A DNA stretch of 64,000 bases from Herbiconiux sp. L3-i23 (GTDB lineage Bacteria > Actinomycetota > Actinomycetes > Actinomycetales > Microbacteriaceae), in contig NZ_AP025737.1 in assembly GCF_023734115.1 (NCBI RefSeq), positions 1,612,001 through 1,676,000 on the forward strand, in the 5' to 3' direction. Position 1 is the stretch's first letter, and the number at the start of each line of letters is the position of its first letter. Positions 36,685-43,353 of the stretch are shown here, piece by piece. The notes under the pieces were generated by a model. The model did not search any database and had not been told where the DNA came from. It worked only from the letters and a program-made list of their open reading frames with translations. The translations under genes were made by a program, and so were the position numbers.

Positions 36685-37917
36685 TCAGACGAGCAGGTCG
36701 AGTATCCGGTGGGCCACCGACACCTTGTCGCCCGCGGCCTCACCCACTATAGAGCCGGCCCGGTCGAGCACGATGACCTCGTTACCGGGGGTGCCGAAAC
36801 CTTCGTGCCACCCCACCCTGTTGAGGACCAGGTAGTCGACGCCCTTGCGCTCGGCCTTGGCGCGCGCGATCGCGAGGAAGCGGTCGTCGTCGGGCTCGGT
36901 CTCGGCGGCGAACCCGATGACACGCTGACCGGCGGCGCGGGTGGGCGTCAGCTCCCCGGATGTCAGCGAGCGCAGGATGTCGGGGTTCTGCACGAGCCGC
37001 ACGGTCACCGCGGTGCCGAGCGACTCCTTCTTGAGCTTGCCGTCGGCGACCGCCTCGGGCCGGTAGTCGGCGACGGCGGCGGCCATCACGACCACGTCGG
37101 CGTCGGCAGCGGAGTCCGCGACGGCGGCGGCCAGCTCGGCGGCGGTCTCGACGCGGACCAGGTCGATGCCGTGCGGCGGGTCGATCTCGAGGTGCGCGGC
37201 GATGAGGGTGACCTCGGCACCGCGGTCGCGTGCCGCTTCGGCGAGGGCGACGCCCTGTCTGCCGCTCGAACGGTTGCCGATGAAGCGCACCGGGTCGAGG
37301 GGTTCGCGGGTGCCGCCCGCGGTCACGAGCACGCGGAGACCCTCGAGGTCCTTCGTGGCGACGGCGGCGAGGGCGACGCGAACGATGTCGCTCGGCTCGC
37401 TCATCCGTCCGGGACCCGAGTCGGCGCCGGTGAGCTGCCCGACCGCCGGGCCGACGGTGATGACGCCGCGCTCGCGGAGGGTGGCGATATTGGCCTGCGT
37501 CGCGGCGTTCTGCCACATCTCGGTGTGCATCGCCGGAGCGACGACGAGGGGTGCGCGGCTCGCGAGCACGGTGTTGCCGAGCAGATCGCCCGCCTGACCG
37601 CCGGCGAGCTTCGCGAGGAAGTCGGCGGTCGCCGGGGCGACCACGATGAGGTCGGCGGCCTGGCCGAGGGCGACGTGGCGCACGTCGGCGACGCCCTCGT
37701 AGAGGTCGGTGCCGAGCGGGTTGCGGCTGATCGCCTCGAGCGTCGGCGCACCGACGAAGCGCAGAGCGGCCTCGGTCGCCACCACGTGCACGTCGTGGCC
37801 GGCGAGCACCAGCTCGCGCACCACCTGGACCGCCTTGTAGGCGGCGATCCCGCCGGTGATGCCCACGACGATGTTCAGTCGGGGCGCCTCACCCGCGGCG
37901 TGAGCCGCGTTCGCCAC
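36685..37917 (-). CDS. coaBC: Bifunctional phosphopantothenoylcysteine decarboxylase / phosphopantothenate-cysteine ligase
   Basis: A 410-residue fusion for two steps of coenzyme A synthesis. CoaC part (about 14-190): [19 protein letters not shown], catalytic His in [10 protein letters not shown], and PAMHTEMW, the actinobacterial variant of the PAMN motif. CoaB part: [29 protein letters not shown], and AAAVADYRP with the substrate Asn/Lys region. GTG start, 7 bases after rpoZ. CoaA/CoaD are elsewhere. Confidence 0.96.
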
Positions 37918-37924
37918 GGAAGGC

Positions 37925-38179
37925 TCAGAGCGCCTTCGAGACGAGCTTGTCCTCGTTGATCTCGTGCATCGCGATCGACAGCGGCTTCTGGTCGATCGGC
38001 GCGTCGACCAGCGGGCCGACGTTGTCGAACAGGCTGCCTTCGTGCAGATCGGCGTAGTAGTCGTTGATCTGACGGGCGCGCTTCGAGGCGAAGAGCACGA
38101 GCGCGTACTTCGAGTCGACCTTCGAGAGGAGGTCGTCGATCGGCGGGTCGATGATGCCTTCGGACTTCATGCTGCTCAT
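37925..38179 (-). CDS. rpoZ: RNA polymerase omega subunit
   Basis: An 84-residue protein with the conserved omega core [29 protein letters not shown] and [15 protein letters not shown]. It stabilises the beta' subunit in RNA polymerase. ATG start with AAAGGCG upstream; Met4 is an alternative. Sits between gmk and coaBC, the classical gmk-rpoZ-coaBC order. Confidence 0.96.
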
Positions 38180-38255: not shown

Positions 38256-39152
38256 CTAATCGCGCGAGACCGCCATCAATTGTACGACTTCCCGGGCCGC
38301 GGTCTCCACGTCGGAGTTGACGACATGGAAATCGAACTCGTCCTGCGCGGCCAGCTCGATCTTCGCGGTGGCCAGCCGGCGCTCCCGTTCGGCCTCGTCC
38401 TCGGTGCCGCGGCCGACGAGCCGCCGCACCAGTTCGTCCCAGGACGGGGGCAGCAGGAAGACCAGCCGCGCCTCGGGGAACGCCTGTCGCACCTGACGCG
38501 CGCCCTGCAGGTCGATCTCGAGCAGGACGCTCTTGCCCTGGTTCAGGGCCGTGACGATCGGGGTGCGGGGGGTGCCGTAGCGGTACGCGTTGTGGACCGT
38601 CGCCCACTCGAGGAACTCGTTCTCCTCGACCATCGCGTCGAAGCGCGCGTCGTCGACGAAGTAGTAGGTCACGCCCTCGATCTCGCCCGGCCGCGGCGGC
38701 CTCGTCGTCGCGCTCACCGAGAGCAGGACGTCGGGGTGGTGGGTGCGGATGTGGCCTGCGACAGTGCCCTTGCCGACGGCCGTCGGACCCGCGAGCACGA
38801 CGAGACTGCCGGGGCGCAGCGGAGCGCGCCCGGCGGTGCCCTGGCGACGCAGCAGGAACTCGCGCAGCCGCACCTTCTGGTGGGCGCCGAGCCCGCCGAC
38901 CCGCTTCGACGGCGAGATGGCGAGGTCCTCCATGATGCGGGCGGTGCGGGTGGGTCCGAGCCACGGGATGCTGCCGATCAGCTCGCTGACCCGCAGGGTC
39001 GCCTCGGCGGGGTGCTCGTCGCCCGCGGAGTCGACCACATCGATCGCGAGGCGCTCCCCCGAGGCGATCTGCCGCTTGACCTCGGCGCGTGCACGACGCG
39101 CGGCGACGGCGGCGCGGGATCCGGCGATCCTGTCGACTTCGGGGGGTTTCAC
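38256..39152 (-). CDS. gmk: Fusion of actinobacterial integration host factor (mIHF) and guanylate kinase
   Basis: A 298-residue protein from a GTG at 39152 (GGAGG upstream) that overlaps the pyrF stop as GTGA. Residues ~8-100 match m[61 protein letters not shown], the S13-like helix-two-turn-helix DNA-binding domain. A linker ([14 protein letters not shown]) leads to a complete guanylate kinase: P-loop [43 protein letters not shown]. In mycobacteria mihF and gmk are separate neighbouring genes; here they are one reading frame with no internal stop. Phosphorylates GMP and presumably binds DNA. Confidence 0.93.
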
Positions 39153-40023
39153 GCGACGGCCTCCATGACCTGCTGCTTCTGCTGCCGCACCGCGGCGACG
39201 ATGCCGCTCGGGCCGGCGGCGAGGATGCTGCGCGACTCGGCGACGAGGGTGTTCGGCGCGGACGGGCCGAACAGGGTCTTGATGTCTTCGACGCGGGCAC
39301 CCTGATGCCCGAAGCCGGGAGCGAGGACCGGGACACCCGGCGCCTCGGCGAGGAGTTCGAGGTCGACTCCGAGGTCCGCGAAGTCGACGGTCGCCCCGAG
39401 GACGACTCCGATCGAGCCGAGCCGGTCGCCGTGGTAGGTCTCGGCGTCGTGGCGGGCGACGAGCTCGGCGATCGAGCCGGCCACCGTCGACCCCTCGGTG
39501 GACCCGCGCCGGACGGCGGAGGTCTGCAGCTCGGCGGCCTCCGGGTTCGACGTCGCCGAGAGCACGAATGCCCCCTTGCCGTGGATCCGCGCCGTCTCGA
39601 GGACGACCTCGAGCGAGCCGAAGCCGAGGTAGGGCGCGACCGTCACCGCGTCGGCCTCGAGCGGAGAGCCGGGCTGCAGCCATGCCGTCGCGTAGGCGGC
39701 GAGGGTGCTGCCGAGGTCGCCGCGCTTGGCATCGGCGAGGACGAGCAGCCCCGCCGACCGTGCGGCGGCGAAGAGGTCTTCGAGGGCCCGGTAGCCGGCG
39801 GAGCCGAACCGCTCGTAGAAGGCGACCTGCGGCTTGATGATCGCCACCTCGCCGACGCACGCGTCGAGCACCCGCATGCCGAAGTCGTGCGCGCCGATCG
39901 CGGTCGACGGCAGCGCCCACTCGTCGAGGAGGTACTCGTGCGGATCGATCCCGACGCACAGCGGCCCGTGCAGGGCGATCGCCTCGGCGAGGCGGTCCCC
40001 GAAGGCTGCGGTGACGGGATCGG

Positions 40024-40027
<4 letters not shown>
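39149..40027 (-). CDS. pyrF: Orotidine 5'-phosphate decarboxylase (type 2)
   Basis: A 292-residue enzyme for the last step of UMP synthesis. The catalytic D-K-D motif is in [29 protein letters not shown] and [14 protein letters not shown] mark the actinobacterial/myxococcal type 2 form, longer than E. coli PyrF. Overlaps carB by four bases and the mihF-gmk gene by four. Confidence 0.96.

Positions 40028-43352
<3,325 letters not shown>

Positions 43353-43353
<1 letters not shown>

Follow-up and report, generated by a model that had tools for sequence, protein, structure and literature searches.

In M. tuberculosis, the actinobacterial integration host factor mIHF and guanylate kinase (Gmk) are separate proteins encoded in the order mihF-gmk-rpoZ, and deletion of mihF required that gmk and rpoZ be supplied owing to polar effects (PMC6155035). 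According to a second paper, mIHF is essential in mycobacteria, and its Streptomyces counterpart sIHF is a monomeric DNA binder without sequence specificity, the mycobacterial protein being presumably alike (PMC10028186). In contrast, a homodimer is reported in another paper (PMC3724605). sIHF has 107 residues and is found in nearly all actinobacteria; the paper that lists it mentions neither guanylate nor gmk (PMC4255298). Gmk is a dimer whose contacts tune (p)ppGpp binding, and in several phyla (p)ppGpp inhibits the enzyme (PMC6783271).

Here, we describe a gene in which both proteins are joined. The window is a stretch of 64,000 nucleotides from Herbiconiux sp. L3-i23, and its relevant features are:

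38256..39152, minus strand: fused mIHF-Gmk gene, 298 codons, GTG start at 39152-39150, TAG stop at 38258-38256
38859..39131, minus strand: actinobacterial IHF (H2TH) domain, residues 8-98 (NF041260, Pfam H2TH_5)
38811..38858, minus strand: linker, about residues 99-114, containing no start codon in the window gene
38274..38810, minus strand: complete guanylate kinase domain, residues 115-293 (TIGR03263)
39149..39164, minus strand: GGAGG (39164-39160) and GTGA overlap of the fusion start with the pyrF stop, read directly
39149..40027, minus strand: pyrF (orotidine-5'-phosphate decarboxylase, sub2), upstream (TIGR02127, 265.6 bits)
40024..43353, minus strand: carB-like open reading frame, named by reading (large subunit of carbamoyl-phosphate synthase), preceding pyrF
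37925..38179, minus strand: rpoZ (RNA polymerase omega), downstream (TIGR00690, 65 bits)
36685..37917, minus strand: coaBC, downstream (TIGR00521, 376.9 bits)

The 298-codon frame runs from 39152 to 38256 on the minus strand, which the original prediction had not specified, with zero internal stops, and the plus-strand reading of 38256..39152 matched no family. Residues 8-98 match the actinobacterial IHF family NF041260 with 70.3 bits, above its curated cut-off of 60, and residues 42-97 match Pfam H2TH_5 (47 bits, cut-off 27). The remainder matches TIGR03263 over residues 115-293 (216.7 bits against a cut-off of 160.45, model positions 1-178 of 180) and Pfam Guanylate_kin over residues 117-293 (136.3 bits, cut-off 25.2). 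Among PDB sequences, the best Gmk match was 1znw, the M. tuberculosis enzyme (3e-54), and the IHF-type matches were 4itq (sIHF) and 6tob (mIHF). These data bear out the original prediction of an mIHF and a guanylate kinase in a single reading frame, both domains scoring above their cut-offs. The fusion is present in a single copy and no spare free mIHF or Gmk was found in the genome of the window.

The gene order on the minus strand is carB-like, pyrF, fusion, rpoZ, coaBC and metK-like, carB and metK being named by reading the sequence. The mIHF half occupies the same position before gmk as in other actinobacteria, and the gene order is that of M. tuberculosis, where the proteins are separate. 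The GTG start at 39152-39150 and the pyrF stop, TGA at 39151-39149, overlap, and the GTG lies 7 bases downstream of GGAGG. By a loose test, a candidate start codon overlaps or touches a stop triplet in 78 of 104 fused loci. In two loci (L014 and L015), ATG, GTG and TTG are all absent from the usual start place near the pyrF stop, and another codon or an upstream position may be used. Compared with free mIHF, which has about 105 residues and stands alone, the window protein is homologous over residues 7-98, lacks about 8 N-terminal residues of the free form and is fused to Gmk; compared with a bacterial guanylate kinase, it has about 114 extra N-terminal residues.

The fused architecture was then sought across the family. 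The sample (f1) comprised 249 genomes drawn evenly from a larger group, of which 245 gave a match (150 match rows, all spanning both halves, and 72 plus 23 further genomes); the four without a match are 59-88% complete. Both halves lie in one frame in 229 of the 245, Gmk occurs alone in 15, and in one genome (G009) the pieces overlap in two different frames, the pattern expected of a frameshift. The 229 include G147, where contig ends cut the gene and the N-terminal piece already enters Gmk in one frame, and G077, where a TGA falls within the match and both domains are nevertheless in one frame. About 90 distinct fused loci were translated (91 distinct N-domains) and the remainder was judged from the match rows. 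Named relatives identify the sampled family as Microbacteriaceae: six of seven named Microbacteriaceae records are fused (two Amnibacterium, two Subtercola, one Cryobacterium and one MAG), the other five of the 12 records being Gmk alone from other phyla. Hence the architecture is nearly fixed in the family, and since one-frame copies occur in 229 of 245 matching genomes, a sequencing error hiding a stop between the domains is excluded. In the seventh record, Naasia lichenicola (L034), the halves are set apart by a long linker that contains a TAG stop and a frame change (L034:2900-3660), and the match exceeds that of the window gene by about 190 bases. This reflects a genuine split or an error of the assembly.

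Beyond the family, f44 apart, the two genes are neighbours but separate in the translated loci that contain both, as the original prediction stated for mycobacteria. The order sample contained 139 genomes, 130 of them outside Microbacteriaceae; among the matches listed, all rows from outside the family that span both halves contain 1-2 stops. Of 46 order loci translated, 45 are separate, one has Gmk only (L124) and none is fused. The class sample comprised 138 genomes; among the matches listed from families other than f44, the two genes are separate in 30 of 30 loci that were translated and have both domains complete. A further locus (L200) is separate with a partial Gmk, and four (L192-L195) have Gmk only, gmk being kept and mIHF undetected within the stretch fetched. 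Several suspected fusions were rejected on translation. G250 had open frames of equal length, and both its loci (L064 and L161) are separate. Ten genomes (G371, G322, G298, G289, G465, G409, G463, G474, G441 and G424) with a stop-free match far upstream of Gmk, or with large open frames, proved separate, as did G369 and G338 (12 of 12 in all).

The exception is class family f44, where mIHF and Gmk are fused in 9 of 9 genomes (L183-L191; open frames of 291-321 residues). These genomes are small (1.2-2.2 Mb) and 8 of 9 encode a rhodopsin, so the family appears to be acI/Nanopelagicales-like. The f44 fusion has the same architecture as the window gene; in L185 its two neighbours are a shorter pyrF-like and an rpoZ-like gene, both named by reading. 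With the PyrF of the window as query, no neighbouring pyrF was detected in the three f44 loci searched. The f44 fusion is probably a second, independent event, because f44 belongs to another order, the genes are separate in the other translated families, its N-domain is, apart from the lost motif arginine, of the free type and its pyrF is different. In a tree of the N-domain plus Gmk (81 rows, 20 family fusions), the family fusions form one clade (SH-aLRT 98), and a tree joining f1 with f44 was 12.1 log units worse and not rejected (p-AU 0.295). In the tree of the Gmk domain only, the family fusions do not group together (six changes, weak support), and uniting f44 with f1, both its fused and its Gmk-only members, improved on the quick free tree by 9.44 log units (p-AU 0.587). 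The family fusion would have arisen in a family ancestor when the stop codon separating two neighbouring genes of an operon was lost; its N-terminal half would have been remodelled afterwards and later deleted in some lineages.

The guanylate kinase half is complete, as predicted, with an intact P-loop (GPTAVGKGT). Seventeen kinase-site positions were picked from conservation and structural knowledge. Sixteen of them are invariant in 88 of 88 fused proteins and position 129 is G in 86 of 88; at all 17 P-loop and GMP-site positions, the window gene agrees with the family. Judged from these residues, the active site of the fusions is untouched.

The N-terminal half is different. At positions 14, 28, 30, 52, 67 and 86, the fraction of basic residues is 0.09, 0.17, 0.18, 0.18, 0.11 and 0.01 in the f1 fusions (n=88), against 0.97, 0.80, 0.95, 0.97, 0.83 and 0.92 in separate mIHFs (n=66) and 0.89, 0.78, 0.89, 1.00, 1.00 and 0.00 in f44 (n=9). 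The f44 N-domain, basic at 14, 30, 52 and 67 in 8-9 of 9 proteins, is thus unlike that of the window and otherwise of the free type. The window gene has A, Q, A, T, P and G at the six positions and does not keep the basic residues of free mIHF. Conversely, positions 13, 34, 72, 93 and 95 became basic in f1 (0.78, 0.67, 0.81, 0.86 and 0.74, against 0.09, 0.03, 0.21, 0.32 and 0.09 in separate proteins and 0.00, 0.00, 0.00, 0.33 and 0.00 in f44; same n). R19, R22, K26 and R54, which the fusion shares with actinobacterial IHF, are invariant, as are G66, L88 and Q92. A fused domain less basic than free mIHF had been expected, but the net charge is higher when fused (+7.5 in 88 fused against +5.6 in 46 separate). 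Thirteen of 91 comparable columns are switched in the N-domain and 5 in the Gmk domain. The fused half also scores lower against NF041260, with 50-78 bits in 12 family genomes with a main match and 127-148 bits in six genomes of the order with separate genes; some fused relatives fall below the cut-off of 60 (G030, 55.3; G015, 57.8). Since basic positions were both lost and gained and the net charge was kept, the N-terminal half is neither decayed nor a plain mIHF. Its designation as mIHF therefore holds at the level of the family match over the cut-off, and not for the basic surface, which has been exchanged position by position.

The last arginine of the RRxRGLG motif (position 86) is found in 1 of 88 fused and 61 of 66 separate proteins, and in 0 of 9 from f44, which shares this loss with the window gene. 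The loss is not unique to fusions, because five of the 66 separate mIHFs lack the arginine and one fused protein (L060) has it. The window gene has K83, R84 and G86 and so does not keep all arginines of RRxR. From the 6tob alignment and an 80-190 numbering, the residues numbered R170, R171 and R173 in the old M. tuberculosis scheme would correspond to positions 83, 84 and 86. These mIHF arginines are reportedly required for DNA binding.

Together, these observations lead us to favour, as the somewhat more probable reading, a single bifunctional protein of about 32 kDa in which an altered H2TH module would anchor Gmk to nucleic acid. It would be a normal guanylate kinase, converting GMP to GDP as usual, whose N-terminal H2TH module derives from the adjacent mIHF gene. 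As Gmk is dimeric (PMC6783271), the fusion would present two H2TH modules, which might bind nucleic acid bivalently through the changed surface. The product would place Gmk on or near the nucleoid rather than serve as an abundant packaging protein.

Two products instead of one, by cutting of the chain or by restarted translation inside it, would give a separate mIHF and Gmk as in the relatives. The gap between the two HMM envelopes is short and variable (9-25 residues in 102 of 104 fused loci, a few genes among them fetched twice, and 41 in two), and 59 of 88 genes (67%) have an in-frame ATG, GTG or TTG in or just before the linker, the nearest one in the window gene being a GTG at residue 94 without a Shine-Dalgarno-like sequence. 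The stop and frame change in L034 also make two products possible in Naasia lichenicola. However, such start codons are rarer than in control windows (83%), and so are linker starts with a Shine-Dalgarno-like sequence (11 of 88, 12%, against 29% of 440 control windows inside Gmk) or a strong one (3% against 11%). ATG occurs there in 9 of 88 genes only, and no conserved linker motif was found in the consensus of the fused proteins. There is no sign of selection for an internal start, so that the suggested start of a free Gmk is not supported, and we regard two products as very unlikely.

A neutral gene fusion, in which mIHF and Gmk keep their separate old jobs and do not interact, would need little beyond the loss of a stop, since the genes are adjacent in relatives, and Gmk has indeed changed little. 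Codon bias, taken as an indicator of expression, does not differ between the N part and separate mIHF (the fraction of C-ending codons is 0.619 both in 59 fused and in 54 separate genes). The number of switched columns in the mIHF half and the drop in its NF041260 score argue against it; moreover, the fusion would force on the enzyme the mIHF level reported for M. tuberculosis (PMC6155035). We therefore think it improbable that the fusion is neutral.

The N-terminal half might also be a stabilising or regulatory appendage of Gmk that has lost DNA binding in vivo and shapes, for example, the dimer, the lid or the (p)ppGpp response. The loss of the free-mIHF basic positions, among them hairpin position 67 and RRxRGLG position 86, fits this possibility, and GMK dimer contacts are described as altering (p)ppGpp binding (PMC6783271). 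So does the rate of change. At a Gmk distance of 0.1-0.2, the median divergence of the N-domain is 0.40 in fused lineages (190 pairs) against 0.23 in separate ones (41). In all, mostly distant, pairs, where dS is unreliable, the median dN/dS is 0.46 for the N-domain and 0.26 for Gmk when fused (n=867), and 0.32 and 0.35 when separate (n=158, with the same limit on dS). In the 14 closest pairs shown, however, dN/dS is low in both halves (0.00-0.22 for the N-domain and 0.00-0.24 for Gmk), in keeping with the bifunctional protein. The higher dN/dS and divergence of the fused N-domain would fit relaxed constraint after fusion. Against an appendage speak the higher overall basicity and new conserved arginines, the invariant H2TH residues G66, L88 and Q92, and the Gmk domain, whose mere 5 switched positions do not point to a newly formed interface with the N-terminal half. 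We hold this alternative to be rather unlikely, and continue to prefer the tethered bifunctional enzyme.

An appendage would also suit the absence of the half from all sampled matching genomes of five genera (g11, g14, g66, g70 and g81). They account for the 15 Gmk-only genomes (G010, G092, G154, G204, G013, G095, G157, G207, G065, G070, G133, G186, G233, G081 and G144; loci L050, L052, L053, L057, L058, L061, L062, L065-L070, L163 and L164). With 15 of 245 matching family genomes lacking it, the mIHF half is not needed for Gmk. In a quick Gmk tree, g70 and g66 lie among fused relatives (fork 82) and g11, g14 and g81 beside the fused g31 (fork 82). The Gmk-only loci thus fall at two places, with modest support, and the half was probably deleted in two or more sublineages. 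A permissive profile search upstream of gmk gave no convincing mIHF remnant in the 15 loci (best E 0.56), and the PyrF match stops within about 100 bases of the Gmk match in 13 of them (in L052 only the first part of PyrF is matched, in L164 none), which makes deletion likelier than decay. In G186, a match starts at residue 17 and contains two TGA codons, and in G133, G065 and others the match extends slightly upstream of Gmk through a stop; we attribute these extensions to chance because, in G186, PyrF comes to within 45 bases of Gmk.

The reason why two lineages independently joined mIHF to Gmk and lost the same motif arginine might be that attachment to dimeric Gmk gives a bivalent nucleoid-bound enzyme whose DNA binding is coupled to GMP or (p)ppGpp occupancy. 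If true, the pool of guanine nucleotides and the state of the chromosome would be linked by a direct switch; we consider it quite unlikely. The earlier idea that the fusion ties nucleoid architecture to GMP/ppGpp is weakened, the RRxRGLG arginine being gone in both fused lineages and the whole half in five genera. The fusion is real; its purpose is still a proposal. The family-wide fusion, the second fused lineage and the lineages without the half form a ready comparative set for asking whether a nucleoid protein and an enzyme of guanine-nucleotide metabolism cooperate, and on which surface residues the function of mIHF depends. Both halves belong to known families and the order mihF-gmk-rpoZ is known; in open-licence PMC papers, neither the fusion itself nor its extent, second lineage, remodelling or losses were found in print. 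The equivalog_domain kind of NF041260 suggests that annotators already meet the domain inside longer proteins.

No NF041260 match above the cut-off was found in the 15 Gmk-only genomes, three of which gave 20-22 bits. Weak matches elsewhere (20-23 bits) occurred in G207, G233, G013, G162, G104 and G005. That of G207 was rejected, as it reads as ribosomal S13. In the Gmk-only genome G233, a 161-residue open reading frame (L122:1360-1845; 21.4 bits, cut-off 60) matched no phage family convincingly and is possibly a remote mIHF-like protein. NF041260 was matched in 0 of 10 genomes of order family f4, which appears Bifidobacteriaceae-like and keeps gmk, nor was it matched in G283, G325 and G296 of other families. 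Of 22 genomes tested, 20 have HU (the other two are 83-84% complete), which may therefore substitute for mIHF; Lsr2 was detected in 3 of 22. In the Gmk-only locus of G070 (L052), a long Ala/Pro/Thr-rich extension precedes Gmk, apparently in place of the mIHF half.
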